Positions 6,400 through 25,652 of a stretch of 25,652 bases of DNA are shown here, one piece after another. Source of the DNA: a virus; IMG/VR virus record IMGVR_UViG_3300040808_000457, positions 1 through 25,652 of that record. One strand, given 5' to 3'. Position 1 is the first letter of the stretch. Each line of letters opens with the position of its first letter. The notes below the pieces were generated by a model. It was not told where the DNA came from and searched no databases. It was given only the letters and a program-made list of their open reading frames with translations. The position numbers and the translations under genes were made by a program.

Positions 6400-7446
6400 C
6401 TAGTTGTTGATAGGCGCGTAGTTGAACGTGCCAGCGTTAAGCACGGAAGACGCTAGAGAGCGCTTCGCGATGGTTAAAGTTTCCGTTATGCCTAAGGAAT
6501 CCGCCAGCTGCTTTTCAACAAGGCTAGAAGACACCTCTGTGAGTCCAATACTATCTTCTTTATTGGCGCTGTACAAAGCAGAGTAAGCCTCTGCTACTGA
6601 CAGGGTGTCAGATTGGTTCGCGCTCAAGTCAACCGCTAGACCTTCACTTACGCTTATAGCATCTGTTCTGTTTAGGTTTAAAAATAAAGAACTAACGTCA
6701 GTAAAAGCAAAGGTTTCAGAAGGGTTTTTGCCAAAGAGATACGAGTTACTATCGCTAAAGCTAAACGAGTCCGCTAAAGGCTTGGCATATCCAATATCGT
6801 GAGCGTCAGAAAAACCAAAAATATTCCCTTTAGACAGATCTGTGTCTACAGTAAATGAGTCGACTCGCGCGAGATCGTCTAGCGTAAAAGCGTCAGTAAA
6901 AGTCCTGAAGAAGCTTACTGTCCTTGACAGAGCTTCAAGCATAGAAACCGAATCAGCTTGCGGCTTATCTAGAAGAGATGAATATAGCTCTGAGACAGAT
7001 ATGCCGTCTTCTTCTGGCGCCCTGGTAAACGAATAAGCGTGTGCTTCTGATACAGAGGCAACATCCGTAAGACTTTTGCTAAACAAAGTCCGCGAGCTTT
7101 CAGTTACGCTTACAGTGTCACTCTGCGTTTTAGCGATAGTTAAAACGGCGGACTCTGATACCGAAAACGAGTCTTCAAGAGAGCGCTCAAACAGCAGCGA
7201 GAGCTCTTCGGATAAAACGAACTTATTAGCGTCTGGGTCTCTGAAGAATAGGTTCTTAGAGTCCGGATTTAACGCTACATTACTGGCTACAAGATTCGTA
7301 AACGAAATAGGTGACGCTATCTTTGCGTCAAGGATAGTTAAGTCAGCTCGTAAACTAGCACCATTAAGCGAAGCAACTCTAAGGTCGGTTAGAGTTACAT
7401 CAACTTTTGCGCCAAAAGGGCTATTTACGAGCAGCTCTCCAGCCAC
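6400..7446 (-). CDS. Tail fibre of 18-residue tandem repeats
   Basis: A 348-residue protein made mostly of tandem repeats. Residues 1-72 form a unique N-terminal domain (VDVTLTDLRVASLNGASLRA), likely the attachment module. Residues 73-331 are 14 repeat units, ten of them exactly 18 residues long. The consensus is (S/T/A/E)-D-(S/T)-x-S-V-(S/T)-E followed by about ten variable residues with a small hydrophobic centre. The last 17 residues are unique. Marine phage fibres with similar DS.SVSE-type repeats are known. The start is GTG at 7446, sharing its G with the upstream TAG stop (TAGTG), and no later Met fits. A GGAG lies rather far upstream, so coupled re-initiation is likely. No cysteines are present. 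Confidence 0.82.
   Translation of the reverse strand: MAGELLVNSPFGAKVDVTLTDLRVASLNGASLRADLTILDAKIASPISFTNLVASNVALNPDSKNLFFRDPDANKFVLSEELSLLFERSLEDSFSVSESAVLTIAKTQSDTVSVTESSRTLFSKSLTDVASVSEAHAYSFTRAPEEDGISVSELYSSLLDKPQADSVSMLEALSRTVSFFRTFTDAFTLDDLARVDSFTVDTDLSKGNIFGFSDAHDIGYAKPLADSFSFSDSNSYLFGKNPSETFAFTDVSSLFLNLNRTDAISVSEGLAVDLSANQSDTLSVAEAYSALYSANKEDSIGLTEVSSSLVEKQLADSLGITETLTIAKRSLASSVLNAGTFNYAPINN
6454..7230 (-). repeat. Protein-level repeat array, 14 units of about 18 residues
   Basis: These codons specify the repeat domain of the fibre. Units are diverged at the DNA level, so the array is old and maintained by selection rather than freshly amplified. Irregular units (19, 20, 23 and 17 residues) occur at residues 127-145, 164-183, 184-206 and 315-331; the others are 18 residues long. 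Confidence 0.85.
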
Positions 7447-19565: not shown

Positions 19566-20711
19566 TTACTGAGCGGTGTCGAGGCAGATAACCCCGAAGT
19601 CCTGCACGGACCCACTGACATCGCTGTTGAACTTCGGCTTACGAAGACCAAAGATCTTGCCGATGGAGATACCGGCTTGGTTTTCGTAGTCGAAGGTGTC
19701 TTCAACGATCTCAGGCAGACCGATGTCGGCCATGCCGAGCGCTTGAGCACCGCAGAAGAGTGCGCGAGCACCTTCCACATCTGCGTCTGCACCCCACTTG
19801 TAGCCGGGGTCGCCAGCTTCAGAGGACGTACCGGTCGTTGCGCCAGAGGTGTTAAACACGTGACGGAACTCGTGGATCATCACACCGTCAACCATCAGCG
19901 AGCTGGTACCAGCGAAGAGCTGGTTGTTCGGCCCACGGATGCCTGCGTTGCGAACGTTGGCGAGGAAGTCGCTATCCAGCTTGAGGTCAGCCATTTGCTT
20001 CGGCGTGACGAACATGTGGAAGATTTCCTCGTTGCCTGCGCCACGGATACCACGGATGTAGTTATCCTTAGCGAAGGCCTTCAGGTCCACGATGTGGCGG
20101 TACTTGATGACGTCGGTCGACTCAAGAGCCGTCGTGTCGCCTGCGACAAGCAGGTCACCATCGGTACGGAGGTGACGGGCGCTGGTCGGAGCAGACACAT
20201 CAGAGGCGAACTCAAGGTCCACCAGCTCAAGGCCGGTCGTAGCAGAGGTCGGGCGGAGGGCGCCGTTGGTCTTGTGGGTGTAAGCAACACCGGCCAGCGT
20301 CAGGAACGCAAGCTGGTCCATCCGGTCAGCCATGGCATAGGCCAGAGCGTCGCGGCTGGTCTCACGGAAGTTCACCACGGACTTCTGATCGGCCAGACGA
20401 CCGGCGATGCGGTTAGCAAAGCGGAGCTGGTCGAGCTCAATCGTGATGTCATAGGAACGCAGTGCTTCTTCGTTCCCTTCCAGGGTGTTGTCACCCGTCA
20501 CACCGTCGCCGGTCATGTCGGCAAGCAGCGTCAGAACGGCGCGAGTGCCTTTGTCGGAACGAGTGAGTTCGGTGATCCGTTGGATCATTGCGTTAGAACC
20601 AGAACCTGCAAACTGGTTCACGAAGGACATGTTGCGAGCAACACGCCAGAAGTCGCGACTCCACGCGGTAAGCTGTTCGGAAGTCAGCGACGCAAAGTTA
20701 GTAAGAGCCAT
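19566..20711 (-). CDS. Major capsid protein (N4-gp56/DUF4043-like)
   Basis: A 381-residue shell protein. The N-terminal pattern is diagnostic of the family: LTSEQLTAWSRDFWRVARNM, SFVNQF, SNAMIQRITELTRSDKGTRA, VLTLLADMTGDGVTGDNTLE and GNEEALRSYD. The family-typical DQLRFANRIAGRLADQKSVV and DRMDQLAFLTLAGV follow. The C-terminal part has an Ala/Gly-rich segment (GARALFCGAQALGMAD) then DYENQAGISIGKIFGLRKPK, as in other members. Its length is near the family norm. The gene has the best ribosome binding site in the window (AGGAGG, 6 bases before the ATG), a 254-base structured leader, and a strong hairpin after the stop, all consistent with very high expression. Function: forms the HK97-fold icosahedral shell around the scaffold. 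Confidence 0.95.
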   Translation of the reverse strand: MALTNFASLTSEQLTAWSRDFWRVARNMSFVNQFAGSGSNAMIQRITELTRSDKGTRAVLTLLADMTGDGVTGDNTLEGNEEALRSYDITIELDQLRFANRIAGRLADQKSVVNFRETSRDALAYAMADRMDQLAFLTLAGVAYTHKTNGALRPTSATTGLELVDLEFASDVSAPTSARHLRTDGDLLVAGDTTALESTDVIKYRHIVDLKAFAKDNYIRGIRGAGNEEIFHMFVTPKQMADLKLDSDFLANVRNAGIRGPNNQLFAGTSSLMVDGVMIHEFRHVFNTSGATTGTSSEAGDPGYKWGADADVEGARALFCGAQALGMADIGLPEIVEDTFDYENQAGISIGKIFGLRKPKFNSDVSGSVQDFGVICLDTAQ

Positions 20712-20965
20712 GGTAGGCCTCCTAAATTATTGTCGATGTTATGCAGCAAAATAGCTGCCGTACCCTTCGTTTTCAGCCGACTTGTGGAGCGGCTAACCCG
20801 TTCCCCGTATCGTGGGGCAACGACTTAGCGCGTATTTACGAGGCGCGACCTCGGCATGTTTTACGCCGATGCGGGCGAGGACGTTTTTTACGTGTGCGAC
20901 ACGGCCCGATATCGTACGGACGGACGAATATTGCAATACTAGTAACTGTTTCTAATAAACACAAG
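20712..20965 (-). promoter_or_regulatory. Non-coding, hairpin-rich leader upstream of the capsid gene
   Basis: The only sizeable gap in the window; I see no plausible gene in it. In the minus-strand transcript it can fold into several short hairpins: arms at 20891-20895/20899-20903 (CGTGT type), 20839-20843/20849-20853 (CGAGG type), 20803-20806/20814-20817 (CCCC/GGGG), 20773-20779/20790-20796 (7 bp with one G-U), and 20743-20747/20754-20758 (GCAGC). Segment 20849-20853 can instead pair with 20876-20880, with 20854-20857 pairing to 20869-20872, so two folds compete. A weak promoter-like pair (TTGTGT at 20964-20959 and TAGTAT at 20941-20936, 17 bases apart) lies at its upstream end. A promoter, an mRNA-processing site or a regulated leader are all possible. 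Confidence 0.55.
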
Positions 20966-21217
20966 CTATCTATATCGAGAAGTTTTCTTAGCAATCTTTT
21001 TAGGCTGCTTTGAAAACTGCTTCCCGGCTTTAGTATCTTTGCGCTTTTTACGAGAAGTAGCTGCGTACTCTTTCTTAGAAAGAGCCTCGCGGGCCTTCTT
21101 CGGTAGGTAACGCTCCCCGGTAGCTTTAGACCCTTGAGTGCTTGGCTTACCGGACTTGGTGCCCCACTCTTCCTTGGTCCATTTACGTAAGGACTTCTGA
21201 GACTTTTTAAGAGCCAT
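20966..21217 (-). CDS. Small lysine-rich protein, 83 residues
   Basis: A very basic protein: 29 of 83 residues are Lys or Arg and only six are acidic. It has a conserved-looking body (RKWTKEEWGTKSGKPSTQGS, GERYLPKKAREALSKKEYAA, then KAGKQFSKQPKKIAKK). I recall near-identical proteins in marine cyanophages and other aquatic viruses, annotated only as a domain of unknown function; I cannot name the family with certainty. There is no transmembrane segment or signal peptide. Its ATG shares one base with the upstream TGA stop (TGATG). It is the last member of the basic cassette before the capsid leader. Nucleic-acid binding is suggested by charge only. Confidence 0.85.
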   Translation of the reverse strand: MALKKSQKSLRKWTKEEWGTKSGKPSTQGSKATGERYLPKKAREALSKKEYAATSRKKRKDTKAGKQFSKQPKKIAKKTSRYR

Positions 21218-21408
21218 CAGCTTTTCTTCTTATTCATCTTACGTAGGGTCATGGCTAAACGCGCTCTCTGCCCCGTCTTTCCTGGCTTTTTTGCAGCTTT
21301 ACGAAGGTCTTTAGCCGGGATCTTTTCACCCTTTTTCACGCCCATGGTCTTACGTAAGGCCCCGGGCTTCTTGATAGCGTCTTTGATCCACTTTTTCTTT
21401 TCGGCCAT
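21217..21408 (-). CDS. Small lysine-rich protein, 63 residues
   Basis: A 63-residue protein with 24 Lys/Arg (38 percent). It reads MAEKKKWIKDAIKKPGALRK, then GVKKGEKIPAKDLRKAAKKP, then RARLAMTLRKM. The (K)KWIK-x-AIKKPGAL...RA-R-LA-x-TLRK pattern is one I recognise from small marine-virus proteins with no assigned function. It looks like two amphipathic helices separated by a Lys/Gly/Pro turn. Its ATG overlaps the upstream TAA by one base (TAATG), and its own TGA overlaps the next ATG by one base. It has no independent strong ribosome binding site, so translation probably depends on coupling. Confidence 0.85.
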   Translation of the reverse strand: MAEKKKWIKDAIKKPGALRKTMGVKKGEKIPAKDLRKAAKKPGKTGQRARLAMTLRKMNKKKS

Positions 21409-21605
21409 TAGTCTCTATAGCCTCCGCCTTTAGCCTTATACTCTTTGGCGAGCATCTGCGCCTTCCTGGCACTCCACTGTCCGGGTTTTCCGCCCTTACC
21501 GCCCGCTTTAATCTTCTCAAAGAGCTGCTTACGCATGGTCGGCTTAGTGTAATTACCGGCGGCGTTCACTTTACTTTTAGTAGTTTTAGCAGGCTTTTTG
21601 TTCAT
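21408..21605 (-). CDS. Small lysine/glycine-rich protein, 65 residues
   Basis: A 65-residue protein, 18 of them Lys/Arg. It reads KSKVNAAGNYTKPTMRKQLF, then EKIKAGGKGGKPGQWSARKA, then QMLAKEYKAKGGGYRD. The N-Y-T-K-P-x-(L/M)-R-K...GG-x-PGQWSARKAQ-x-LAK-x-Y pattern is a small domain I have seen repeatedly in aquatic phages and large DNA viruses, described as unknown function. Tryptophan plus SARKAQ in a basic helix suggests binding to DNA or RNA, but this is inference. Its ATG overlaps the upstream TAA (TAATG), and its own TAA overlaps the next ATG the same way, forming a coupled chain. Confidence 0.85.
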   Translation of the reverse strand: MNKKPAKTTKSKVNAAGNYTKPTMRKQLFEKIKAGGKGGKPGQWSARKAQMLAKEYKAKGGGYRD

Positions 21606-21721
21606 TAATACATCTTTTTCTTAGGCGACTTTTTAGCAGCCGTTTTTGCAGCACGCTTCATGCATTTACCCGCACGCTTACACTTAGCGGGGCTAGGACA
21701 TCCGGCACAAGGTTTGAACAT
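21605..21721 (-). CDS. 38-residue Cys4 lysine-rich mini-protein
   Basis: A very short gene that is nevertheless convincing. It has an AGGAG ribosome binding site 7 bases before ATG 21721, it fits exactly between its neighbours, and its TAA overlaps the next ATG by one base. The protein begins MFKPCAGCPSPAKCKRAGKC and ends in a Lys/Ala tail (KTAAKKSPKKKMY). Four cysteines (5, 8, 14, 20) in a C-x2-C-x5-C-x5-C arrangement could bind one zinc ion. Thirteen of 38 residues are Lys/Arg. The tail resembles histone-H1-like or basic DNA-binding tails. Function unknown; a small nucleic-acid-binding zinc protein is a guess. Confidence 0.75.
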   Translation of the reverse strand: MFKPCAGCPSPAKCKRAGKCMKRAAKTAAKKSPKKKMY

Positions 21722-21731
21722 GGTTAGGCTC

Positions 21732-22025
21732 CTACCATTTAACTTTATCGGCCCAGTAGGCCGCGCTCATCTTACCCTTTTTAATATTACGTGCGTGTCG
21801 AGCTTTAAATGACGCACGCTTCTTCTTCATGCGCTCCGACTCACCCGCTTTTGGCTTGCCGGCGGTGCTCGCCCCCTGCTCACCAAAGCGGATAGTTTTA
21901 ACCTTGTCGCCCTCTTTAGCCACGACAACGTGGCTCTTTTTAGGGTGGCTAGGCGTCCGCTTAGGTTTGTTGTAGCCCGAGACTCCTGCTCGGGCTAATC
22001 GCGGGTCTTTTTTCCGCTCGGCCAT
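21732..22025 (-). CDS. Small basic protein, 97 residues
   Basis: A 97-residue basic protein and the first gene of the small-protein cassette. The N-terminus is RKKDPRLARAGVSGYNKPKR. A short beta-like part follows (SHVVVAKEGDKVKTIRFGEQ), then a C-terminal domain ERMKKKRASFKARHARNI...GKMSAAYWADKVKW. That C-terminal pattern (R-x-SFKARH...SAAYWA-x-KVKW) is a widespread small phage domain I recognise from marine phages without known function. The middle RFG-x-QG segment resembles a small phosphate- or nucleic-acid-contacting loop, but this is speculative. ATG 22025 has an AGGAG ribosome binding site overlapping the scaffold stop (TAA then AGGAG). Its own TAG forms the next gene's TAGGAG. Confidence 0.85.
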   Translation of the reverse strand: MAERKKDPRLARAGVSGYNKPKRTPSHPKKSHVVVAKEGDKVKTIRFGEQGASTAGKPKAGESERMKKKRASFKARHARNIKKGKMSAAYWADKVKW

Positions 22026-22037
22026 TGGCCTGCTCCT

Positions 22038-23048
22038 TTATAGGATGTCGCCCCTGAGGCGCTTCAGCGTGGCCTCTGGGAGCGCTGAGAACTCTTCCTC
22101 AGTCATATTAGAGATGTCAGCTGCCCGCTCTCCACGGGACGCAGAGGACTCCCCAGGCAGCTCCGGAGGCTGAGATGCCGCCGCTTTGAGCTTACGGCTC
22201 ACTTCTGCGCGCTTTTTAGCCACTTCATCCGCCTGTTTCGGTGCCGCTTGGGTAGCAAGCGACGGTGCTTCGCTAGAGGAGTCTAGACCGTACTCTTTAA
22301 TCACGTACTTTGCAGCCTTCGATAGCGCTGCAACGGCGTTTTCACCCTTAACAATGAAGGCGTCGCGCAAATCGATGACTTCCTGGGTGTACTCTTCGCT
22401 GTAATCGGGGCTAGAACGGTCGAAAACCGGGAAATTAGCTTCCAGATCGGACGCGGCCTGCTGCAAAGCGGTCATCTGCTGGTTCTGAGTGACCTTTTGC
22501 TCCATTTTCTGAGCCATTTCGTACTCAATCTGAGCACGTTCGGCCCGACGCATCTCCGCACGGAGTGCTGCAGCCTTCTGAGACTCCCCATCAAGCAGTA
22601 AGTTCTGGTATTCGATTTCTTTGGCTTCGAAATCGTAGGTCTCGGGAGCATTTTCCACCTGCTCCTTAGCCGCCATGAGGTCATCCAGCTGCTTTTGGAG
22701 CGCTTTCTGCTTGGCAAGCACCTCATCGAGCCGTGATTTCGGCACCATGGGCTTCTTCTGCTCAGGTTCGTCCTCAATTTCGGGCTCTTCGGCCTCAATT
22801 TCGGGCTCTTCCCCTAAGGCAGACGGTTCATTCTCGTCTACTTCAGAGGCTTCGGGGTCTTCCGGCTCCTCTCCCAAAGCAGAGGGCTCGTCTTCGTCTT
22901 CGTCTTCGTCGATTTCAGGCTCAGGAGCCGGAGTAGGTTCCTGATCGAGCCCAAAGTTCATGTCCAACCGGTCGTTGGCGCCTTCCTCAAGCTGGTCGGC
23001 CCCCGGCATGCGGTCGAAAGTTACTGTCTTGTCCTGAGCTTCGCTCAT
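22038..23048 (-). CDS. Capsid scaffolding protein
   Basis: A 336-residue acidic, helical protein between portal and capsid, the standard place for a scaffold. Residues 20-95 are extremely Glu/Asp-rich with repeats of EPSALGEEPE and PEIE. Residues about 100-205 form a long coiled coil (KSRLDEVLAKQKALQKQLDD, ALRAEMRRAERAQIEYEMAQ). The C-terminal third includes an Ala/Lys/Arg helix (ADEVAKKRAEVSRKLKAA) and ends LPEATLKRLRGDIL, a plausible basic capsid-binding helix. Scaffolds are sequence-variable, so the call rests on position, charge and coiled coil. ATG 23048 has a TAGGAG ribosome binding site whose TAG is the portal stop. Confidence 0.85.
   Translation of the reverse strand: MSEAQDKTVTFDRMPGADQLEEGANDRLDMNFGLDQEPTPAPEPEIDEDEDEDEPSALGEEPEDPEASEVDENEPSALGEEPEIEAEEPEIEDEPEQKKPMVPKSRLDEVLAKQKALQKQLDDLMAAKEQVENAPETYDFEAKEIEYQNLLLDGESQKAAALRAEMRRAERAQIEYEMAQKMEQKVTQNQQMTALQQAASDLEANFPVFDRSSPDYSEEYTQEVIDLRDAFIVKGENAVAALSKAAKYVIKEYGLDSSSEAPSLATQAAPKQADEVAKKRAEVSRKLKAAASQPPELPGESSASRGERAADISNMTEEEFSALPEATLKRLRGDIL
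22772..22811. repeat. Two 19-bp direct repeats in the scaffold gene
   Basis: Identical 19-bp copies lie at 22772-22790 and 22793-22811, 21 bases (7 codons) apart. They encode the two PEIE units of the acidic domain. The period preserves frame, so slippage would only lengthen or shorten the acidic linker. Confidence 0.85.
22888..22911. repeat. Hexanucleotide microsatellite coding for Glu-Asp
   Basis: The plus strand repeats tcgtct/cgtctt about four times, encoding the EDEDEDE stretch of the scaffold. It is a slippage-prone, frame-preserving repeat and could vary in length between related phages. Confidence 0.8.
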
Positions 23049-23057
23049 GTCAATCTC

Positions 23058-25235
23058 CTATTGATTAATCGGGGGCCGCACGTTCGGAATGTTTACCGGC
23101 TGCGGTTGTTGAGGCTGCTGGTTCTGCTGCTTAGCAGCCGTCTGCATCGCCGTAGCAGCGATTCGAGTAGCCGCCGCAGTCTCTTGCTGCGAGCGACGGG
23201 TCTGGTTGGTGAGGTCTGCAAGCTCACGCCGCAAGTCGAGTTCCTGCTGCTTCATGGCCATCTTGCTCTGCAGCTCGGCCATACGTAGCTGCGGGCTGAC
23301 ATCTGCGGTGTCCTGCACTTTGGCGATGTTGATCGCGGCCTCGGACTGCAGCTTCTGGACCTCTGCCTGCAGCTTACCCAGCTCAAGCTGCGCCTGCTGC
23401 ATGGCCATCTGCGCCTGCATGGCCTGGACCTCTGCCTGCTCAGGCGTCGGCGGCTCCTGACCCGTGAGCGCACGGATGCGCTTGGCCAGCTCCTGCTTAC
23501 GAGCCAGGTGGCTGTACTCAATGATGGCGTCGTCAGGAATAGCCACCCCGATTTGCCGCATGTTGAGCGCTTCAGCGAACTGCACCTCGTCGAAGCTATC
23601 ACGGGCCGGAGCCGTGGCTATCACAACGTCATATTCCCCTAGGGTCAAGTCGTTGACGATGCGGCCCTCGGGGGTCATCTCGTTGATGATCATGGGCTCA
23701 CGAGGCTGAAGCGGGTCATCCTCGTTGGTGATCATGATGATCCGCTGCTCGGTGTAGAAGCTCTGGATGAGGTTCAGCACCTTCTCGGCCAGATAGTGGC
23801 GGGCCTTACGCAGGTTATCCAGGGGCACCTGAATCATGATAACGCCACGATTCTGCTTGGCCTGGATGGCTACGCCGGACACCTCAGCGCTGTCCGACCC
23901 CAGCATGGAGTCGTTGATGCCGCTGATGGTTTTGATGTTCAACGCGGCTTTCTGGCTGATGCGGTCTAGGCCAGTAGGAATCTGGTTGGGCGGGATCTTA
24001 GAGGGCGGGTTGGACCCACGGTTGTATTCCAGCACGAGACCGGTCTCAGCCCCGTGCTCCTCTAGATCGTCTGCCGTCATCCCGACCAACGAGCCGCTTT
24101 CGACGACCCACCCGCTGTTAGCGGTAGTGTTGACGATGTGCAGCTCCTGGCTCGCAATCTTGTTCAGCTGCTCCTGGGGAGACAGCAGGTTGCGGACCAT
24201 TCCGAAAGGACGACCACGGCGGAAGTACGCGAAATAAGGAACAACTGTGAAGTCATTGTAGGGCGACCAATCGTCGTGCAGGACCACCTTGTCGCAGGTC
24301 ACGGTCCAGCGAACGCGGCGCTTCACCTTAGAGATGATATCTAGCCCGTGCTGCTTGGCGAACTTCTTCGCTTTTGCGTCCGACCAAGCCTCGGGCACAT
24401 CTCGTTGGTCGCCCGTAAGCGGGTCCACGTAGCAGTCGACGCGGTGCATGCGCCGGTGCTGTCGCTCAATGACCCGCAACGCGCGCACATTCCGGTATTC
24501 ATCATCCCCAGGAACGCCCGCCCCAAAGTAGTCGTCAGTTTGATCAAGGTCGCCATAACGAGTTTCTTCGTACTCTATCGAGTCTCTCCCGAAGCTGTTG
24601 CCGTTCTCTGCGATGAAGCGCAACTCTTCGGCTTTTTTCTTCCCGTACAGCTCTTCGATTTCGTCGAGAGTCATCCATTTCGTTTCAAAGACCTCGTTCC
24701 ACGTTTTGGGATCGTAGTCCTTGGCGTCCGGATCGATAAGGATGTCCAACGGATCTTTAGCCATGATCCGAATTTCGCCTTCCACATGGTCACTGAAGTC
24801 CATGCGGACGTCAAAGAACCCACGACCGTCCATGATGAGGCCGTCGCTGAACACCTGCTGCTCGACCCAGTCGAGCTTGTTGTTGTCCGCGATCTGCATG
24901 TACAGCTTGGTCAGCGTGTTAGCTACGTCGCTGTCGCCATTGCGCCGGGGCTTGAAGCGCACATCTGCACGGCGCGTGGACTGTTCTCCAAGGACCGTGT
25001 TCACGGTCGGGAGGATGGTGTTGATGGTCAGGGCGGGACGGCCCTGGGCCTCAAGAGCAGAGAGGTCCGCCTCGTCCCACTGGTCGCCACGATAGTAGGC
25101 GTCGCACTTCTTGGCCGTTTCAATGTACTCAAGGTGACCGTTGTCACGGGCTCGGATGTATCGATCCCACTGACGGCTGGCGACTTCCTGTTGTTCGCCG
25201 GGGGTCATTCGCTTAGCACTTTTAGTAATGGCCAT
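23058..25235 (-). CDS. Portal protein (P22-like)
   Basis: A 725-residue portal; twelve copies form the DNA gateway at one capsid vertex. The N-terminal half is typical of P22-type portals: YYRGDQWDEADLSALEAQGR, PALTINTILPTVNTVLGEQS, DPLDILIDPDAKDYD. Later come RPFGMVRNLLSPQEQLNKIA and SGVAIQAKQNRG. The C-terminal 120 residues are Gln/Ala/Leu-rich coiled coil (MQAQMAMQQAQLELGKLQAE) and end in a Gln/Pro tail, comparable with a barrel region entering the capsid. ATG at 25235 starts one base after the terminase TAA (TAATATG); a GTG three codons earlier (25244) is possible. There is only a weak ribosome binding site, so coupling with the terminase gene is likely. Confidence 0.95.
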   Translation of the reverse strand: MAITKSAKRMTPGEQQEVASRQWDRYIRARDNGHLEYIETAKKCDAYYRGDQWDEADLSALEAQGRPALTINTILPTVNTVLGEQSTRRADVRFKPRRNGDSDVANTLTKLYMQIADNNKLDWVEQQVFSDGLIMDGRGFFDVRMDFSDHVEGEIRIMAKDPLDILIDPDAKDYDPKTWNEVFETKWMTLDEIEELYGKKKAEELRFIAENGNSFGRDSIEYEETRYGDLDQTDDYFGAGVPGDDEYRNVRALRVIERQHRRMHRVDCYVDPLTGDQRDVPEAWSDAKAKKFAKQHGLDIISKVKRRVRWTVTCDKVVLHDDWSPYNDFTVVPYFAYFRRGRPFGMVRNLLSPQEQLNKIASQELHIVNTTANSGWVVESGSLVGMTADDLEEHGAETGLVLEYNRGSNPPSKIPPNQIPTGLDRISQKAALNIKTISGINDSMLGSDSAEVSGVAIQAKQNRGVIMIQVPLDNLRKARHYLAEKVLNLIQSFYTEQRIIMITNEDDPLQPREPMIINEMTPEGRIVNDLTLGEYDVVIATAPARDSFDEVQFAEALNMRQIGVAIPDDAIIEYSHLARKQELAKRIRALTGQEPPTPEQAEVQAMQAQMAMQQAQLELGKLQAEVQKLQSEAAINIAKVQDTADVSPQLRMAELQSKMAMKQQELDLRRELADLTNQTRRSQQETAAATRIAATAMQTAAKQQNQQPQQPQPVNIPNVRPPINQ

Positions 25236-25236
25236 A

Positions 25237-25652
25237 TTACGCACTCATCGCTGAACGTTGGCGAGGCGTCTTACCAATATAGTCGAGCCTGTCTCGCCAG
25301 GAAGGCTCGCGGATCACGGGGGCGCTGTAGGTCGAGAACTCCGTCATCATGAGGCCCAACCACGCCAGAGCGTCGACTTGGTCGTCATGCACTCCATTCG
25401 GGAACCGCAGCAGCTCTGCTACCAACGGCCCCGTAAAAATCTCGTTGCGCGGCAGGAACACCATGCCCTGCTGCATCCGGCCCTGGATAGCACGAGCCCG
25501 TGCCTCCTTATCCCTGCGCCCCGTTTTAAGATCCTTGAAGTACGCTTCGTAGAGCCCTCGCTCACGAACGCGTTTCTCCAAAAATGGTCCAAGGGCCATC
25601 TCAATGTGCCCTTTTTCAATGCCAATGATCGACGGTTTCCACTGTTCATACA
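25237..25652 (-). CDS. terL: Terminase large subunit, C-terminal part (right edge)
   Basis: The open frame runs from the window edge and ends TAA at 25237-25239. The visible 137 residues are the C-terminal end of the nuclease domain (IIGIEKGHIEMALGPFLEKR, then FPNGVHDDQVDALAWLGLMM). HDDQVDAL carries the acidic residues of the RNase H-like nuclease that cuts packaged DNA. The N-terminal ATPase part lies outside the window. An ATG at 25599 gives a shorter in-frame reading but is an internal Met, because the frame continues upstream with conserved residues. The packaging motor docks on the portal encoded immediately after. Confidence 0.95.
   Translation of the reverse strand, partial: YEQWKPSIIGIEKGHIEMALGPFLEKRVRERGLYEAYFKDLKTGRRDKEARARAIQGRMQQGMVFLPRNEIFTGPLVAELLRFPNGVHDDQVDALAWLGLMMTEFSTYSAPVIREPSWRDRLDYIGKTPRQRSAMSA

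Follow-up and report, generated by a model that had tools for sequence, protein, structure and literature searches.

As judged by sequence comparison, the scaffold and capsid genes of aquatic bacteriophages enclose an exchangeable set of genes for tiny, strongly positive proteins, which most likely help to build or fill the virus head. The set was studied starting from a 25.6-kb virus record, a genome fragment, the whole of which is called here the window. The head genes of the window, the five basic ORFs forming the cassette, and an RNA element lying close to the capsid gene are listed in Table 1.

Table 1. Head genes, cassette ORFs and RNA element of the window, in the order in which they follow one another on the coding strand
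Feature	Position	Strand	Remarks
Portal protein	23058..25244	(-)	phrog_156, 1.1e-127
Putative scaffold, acidic	22038..23048	(-)	KPP25 ORF018 homologue; lies between the portal and capsid genes
97-aa basic protein, first cassette gene	21732..22025	(-)	phrog_7595; probable head-morphogenesis domain, distant DUF5754/Tlr6F relative
38-aa basic protein	21605..21721	(-)	four Cys: C5, C8, C14, C20
65-aa basic protein	21408..21605	(-)	phrog_17747; N-terminal half of a DUF5872-like 131-aa protein
63-aa basic protein	21217..21408	(-)	phrog_20603/15706-like; sits between the DUF5872-like halves
83-aa basic protein	20966..21217	(-)	phrog_14910; C-terminal half of a DUF5872-like 131-aa protein
Conserved structured RNA, 148 nt	20775..20922	(-)	leader between cassette and capsid gene, just upstream of capsid
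Major capsid protein	19566..20711	(-)	PF13252 Phage_capsid_3, 2.4e-48; phrog_334

The basic cassette of the window

By their profile matches, the capsid and portal genes are securely identified. The scaffold is a putative one, deduced from its position, its homology to KPP25 ORF018 and its composition: the product bears a net charge of -46, and its most acidic 60-residue stretch reaches -31. It has no significant match to the scaffold models of PHROG or Pfam. A prohead protease was not recognized among the head genes of the window, which is a fragment of the genome.

A first-pass annotation had placed five small basic ORFs (97, 38, 65, 63 and 83 residues) between the scaffold-like and capsid genes, and their coordinates were confirmed. 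All five lie on the minus strand and start with ATG. The likeness in charge, also claimed, is evident: the net charge ranges from +22 to +34 per 100 residues, setting the cassette apart from every other confident gene of the window, where it does not exceed +4; the one exception is a doubtful ORF of 81 residues at the edge (+16). In comparisons with homologues, median pN is 0.15–0.22 and median pS 0.82–0.93, the values for the 38-residue ORF being based on 2 usable homologues only. As pN is far below pS, the five ORFs are real genes, under strong purifying selection. Inspection by eye did not reveal a common N-terminus or a capsid-targeting sequence among the five proteins; none of them matches a histone/HU-like or other known DNA-binding family in Pfam, and no credible match was found in PDB, either by sequence or by fold.

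The one-base stop/start overlaps reported within the cassette are exact (TAATG at 21605, TAATG at 21408, TGATG at 21217). Such an overlap is found at 4 of the 25 junctions examined in the genome, the fourth, at 7446, being outside the cassette: by itself, the pattern is not unusual in this genome. Coupled translation at fixed ratios had been proposed for all three junctions. Obligatory coupling is plausible at two of them, those at the starts of the 65- and 83-residue genes, where the Shine-Dalgarno sequence is weak (duplex energies of -1.3 and -2.4 kcal/mol, respectively). The 97-, 38- and 63-residue starts feature a Shine-Dalgarno sequence of their own; since only the 65- and 83-residue starts lack a good one, coupling is a fair proposal for these two. 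At the third junction, the strong Shine-Dalgarno of the 63-residue gene (-9.5 kcal/mol, spacing 11) speaks against it.

The five proteins had also been described as separate and unrelated in sequence, a view that does not hold for those of 65 and 83 residues. In many loci, both are covered end to end by a single fused ORF of 131–132 residues: 37 distinct fused sequences were found, compared with 47 adjacent split pairs. Across phages, the junction of the two ORFs retains stop/start overlaps: of the 48 close split junctions, 30 are at -1 and 10 at -4, 40 in all. Because fused forms and overlapping split forms exist in other phages, the two ORFs are shown, at the level of sequence comparison, to be the halves of one protein of about 131 residues, acting together. 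The five ORFs therefore amount to four units, and near-equimolar expression of the two halves becomes meaningful; two "hypothetical" families turn out to be parts of the same protein. The existence of genuine fusion proteins also caused the first-round iterative HMMs to merge the two families, and later counts were obtained by single-sequence searches. In the window and in several relatives, the 63-residue gene is placed between the two halves. In pelagiphages and HMO-2011-like phages, this pair belongs to late clusters at a distance from the capsid gene, which weighs against a head role.

Neither half matches DUF5872 (PF19197) at E<=1. Fused relatives do match it, below the cut-off of 27.5 (24.4 bits, 4.6e-5, over 95 residues, for one of 131 residues), whereas the window features two ORFs, parted by a third gene. 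The AF2 model of the fused 131-residue protein is only moderate (pLDDT 71.9, pTM 0.41), and its fold is therefore not interpreted; its viral structural matches resemble the relatives found at the sequence level.

As to the two remaining small proteins, the 63-residue family is by homology also a movable domain, since it is found embedded in longer proteins of two other loci (L093:6476-7600, 374 residues; L154:6938-7588, 216 residues). No informative annotation was found for either of these longer proteins. A tblastn search with the 38-residue ORF against phages gave no match; related peptides are present in other scaffold-capsid gaps, for example in L007, L017, L024 and L063. The 38-residue protein is possibly a small metal-binding peptide.

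The scaffold-capsid gap in related phages

The gap was compared among loci gathered in two ways: 80 by similarity to the capsid protein (81–98% identity), and others with the cassette proteins as queries. Within this sample, and as far as homology goes, the scaffold-capsid gap is shown to be a conserved accessory-gene slot, where a near-constant 97-residue gene is joined by changing, small, Lys-rich companions. The 97-residue family is present in 73 of the 76 loci having both scaffold and capsid genes, that is in all but L057, L060 and KPP25; in the latter, the scaffold-like and capsid genes are 181 bases apart, with no cassette in the gap. Its distance matrix correlates with that of the capsid protein (Mantel r=0.40; 0 of 2000 permutations; 46 distinct loci). 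The 47 distinct gaps are 182 to 2072 bases long; the gap of L174 measures 3024 bases. Strongly basic ORFs are 130 of the 153 found in the distinct gaps, and the content of the gap differs even among close relatives. Other basic families featured in the gaps are an 86-residue DUF5872-like protein, a 53-residue protein with the motif YKVWPSAYASGAVAKC and an 83-residue HNH-like protein. As to related phages, in which conservation of the cassette order had been put forward as a check, a basic cassette stays in the slot, and its content is variable, not fixed. Abundant aquatic phages are in this way found to have a slot in which basic genes associated with the head can be swapped.

Variability of length and content among close relatives, together with the presence of the same families in unrelated phages, would also be expected if the gap were just a place where small mobile genes can settle without harm, neutral or selfish insertions adding nothing to the head. 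This explanation is hardly tenable, given the strong purifying selection, the almost universal retention of the 97-residue gene and the recruitment of ORFs that are nearly all basic.

In L007 and L010, the 83-residue basic HNH-like protein precedes the 97-residue gene (weak match to HNH_4, E=0.079, and a match to phrog_4590). A small acidic ORF of 61–63 residues (MKDLEYSMVDVALSVLKYSKGRW...) is found amid the basic ORFs in the gaps of L007, L010 and L017, and similar acidic ORFs are present in L011 and L013.

The 97-residue family and its fusions

The 97-residue protein of the window matches phrog_7595 over its full length (1.9e-43; residues 4–97 on positions 3–96 of the 96 of the profile). The orphan family DUF5754/Tlr6F (PF19058) has members in polinton-like viruses, virophages, giant viruses and phages (PMC4642659). 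A relation of the 97-residue protein to it is supported by profile scores of other members of the protein's own family: a protein from L136, which aligns within the 97-residue family, reaches 44.6 bits (1.5e-11), the NCTB homologue scores 2.5e-11, and matches at E<=0.1 are found for 13 of 39 family members. Because the window protein itself, at 15.0 bits, does not reach the curated cut-off of 27.4, it is termed, on profile evidence, a distant relative only.

A head role of the 97-residue protein is likely, because several independent associations with head assembly are found in unrelated phages. Of the 39 family members, 24 have matches to phrog_220, labelled "minor head protein and DNA pilot", the best at 1.3e-15; for 19, a match was found to phrog_9979, the ICP1-type protease. 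In the capsid protease gp125 of ICP1, located by tblastn with the L136 protein, the domain is C-terminal, after the S78_2 protease domain, and the adjacent gene codes for the scaffold gp124; in the S78_2 protease of Aeromonas phage 4L372XY it is found at the opposite end. The window protein aligns pairwise with both, at 4e-8 for the Aeromonas protease and 7e-7 for the ICP1 protein. In the portal gp012 of Aphanizomenon phage CL131 (1393 residues), the domain spans residues 514–609, between the portal and minor-head domains; LC-MS/MS of purified virions revealed this portal (PMC6293099). In siphovirus KBS-S-2A, next after the 97-residue gene come a scaffold gene belonging to a different family (phrog_206, 3.3e-25) and then the capsid gene. 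In NCTB, the homologue is found among non-head genes, which weighs against a head role.

The window copy is free-standing. In ICP1 and 4L372XY, in contrast, the domain forms one protein with a protease, in a head operon next to the scaffold, and in CL131 it is one part of a portal/minor head protein of the phrog_220 type. The head, one of the targets suggested in the first-pass annotation, is thus indicated for the 97-residue protein, through the portal and prohead protease fusions and the adjacency to an unrelated scaffold. Strong evidence for the head, drawn from homology, is limited to this family; for the 38-, 63- and 65+83-residue proteins, it is their location that suggests it.

The AlphaFold2 model of the window protein (pLDDT 81.5) is composed of a beta-hairpin plus helices. 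It resembles the predicted models of ICP1 ORF125, of XkdF, of ChaB phage proteins and of one Tunisvirus protein; no structural match was found in PDB.

The same genomic and fusion evidence would also serve for transient assembly helpers, binding scaffold, portal or coat during assembly or packaging, in a chaperone-like manner, and leaving before maturation. The 97-residue domain is carried by, or lies beside, prohead proteases and scaffolds, which are largely lost on maturation. Yet the domain-bearing portal of CL131 remains in the virion (PMC6293099), and the high charge of all the partners points to contact with packaged DNA more than to a function in assembly only; a transient function is accordingly regarded as rather unlikely. 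A search of the literature found no virion proteomics of roseophages, pelagiphages or KPP25-like phages with free-standing copies, and at the time of the cited review ICP1 virions lacked a complete proteomic analysis (PMC9040626).

Two further proteins were observed in the course of these comparisons. In L177 (818-6166), the 97-residue domain is at the C-terminus of a protein of 1782 residues, which has no other PHROG match. The Aeromonas phage protease (L252:2803-3726) matches phrog_1530, labelled as DNA methyltransferase, while Pfam identifies it as an S78_2 protease; for this protein, the phrog_1530 label looks wrong.

Possible roles in the head

The nearest working analogues of the cassette are the T4 proteins IPI, IPII and IPIII, small, basic, non-conserved proteins associated with the scaffold core, thought to touch head DNA. 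The T4 internal proteins co-purify with gp22, the scaffold protein; they bind DNA when the salt is low, and differ from one relative to another (PMC9026906). Like them, the cassette proteins are small and basic, and their genes lie directly downstream of a scaffold-like gene. No sequence relationship to them was found, no shared N-terminal propeptide is seen by eye, and membership in the T4 internal head proteins is not claimed.

The explanation considered best, with moderate confidence, is that the cassette codes for accessory head-assembly proteins, which would associate with the procapsid, their Lys-rich chains probably touching DNA or the inner face of the shell. Their synthesis would be late, from the operon that also supplies scaffold and coat, and by binding to portal, scaffold or coat they would gain entry to the procapsid as it grows. 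The 97-residue protein is probably a head-morphogenesis module, incorporated with scaffold into procapsids, and its domain would act as the head-targeting or head-binding module. By analogy with the basic internal proteins of T4, the Lys-rich chains would then line the inner surface of the shell or rest on the packaged DNA, and the cassette proteins would be retained in virions. The stop/start overlaps would hold the 65- and 83-residue halves near equimolar, a condition equal to that of the fused form.

Recruitment by electrostatic pairing with the acidic N-terminus of the scaffold was put to a test, which did not support it, as the charges do not co-vary as expected: the positive charge of the cassette correlates with the negative charge of the scaffold in the wrong direction (Spearman +0.31, p=0.035), and one clade retains the cassette though its scaffold is much less acidic.

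The analogy with T4 may be carried further. Besides being small, basic, scaffold-associated and variable, the T4 internal proteins include IPI, which inhibits a restriction enzyme (PMC9026906); the cassette proteins could, similarly, be packaged and injected with the DNA, to act against restriction or other host defences. The quick turnover of gap content beside capsid proteins that are 81–98% identical is what an arms race predicts. Effectors of this kind would not account for a 97-residue gene that is near-constant and fused to assembly proteins, and no match to defence-related families was found in Pfam or PHROGs, all of which makes ejection improbable.

For the accessory head-assembly reading, the relation of the 97-residue protein to Tlr6F is of wider interest. 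Tlr6F/DUF5754 is conserved in nearly all polinton-like viruses, in several virophages and in many giant viruses, and has been called important, its function being unknown (PMC4642659). Its relative in phages has ties to portal, prohead protease and scaffold, and a testable question follows, namely whether the domain places proteins in the procapsid. A tentative extension, rather doubtful at present, is that the DUF5754/Tlr6F domain works in general as a module for procapsid targeting or for the head interior, and that the scaffold-capsid gaps of aquatic phages would be loading slots for swapped basic cargo.

Finally, the cassette proteins might act in the cell and not in the head, binding nucleic acid late in infection (late mRNA or that of the host, for example); transcription together with the head genes would then be a matter of timing. 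Their high Lys content and their late-operon position in many phages would suit such a role, and the structured RNA that precedes the capsid gene is a candidate target. An intracellular role is nevertheless very improbable, as it leaves the portal and protease fusions of the 97-residue domain unexplained. The RNA element itself has no Rfam match at gathering thresholds, and was not found in KPP25 or in the other phage records tested. It is present in 33 diverse relatives, with extensive compensatory change: 97.1% of cells pair, and 16 of the 29 pairs are changed on both sides. None of 500 shuffles reaches the observed values, and in slid controls pairing drops to 33–43%. The element matches STnc250 only weakly (E=0.031).
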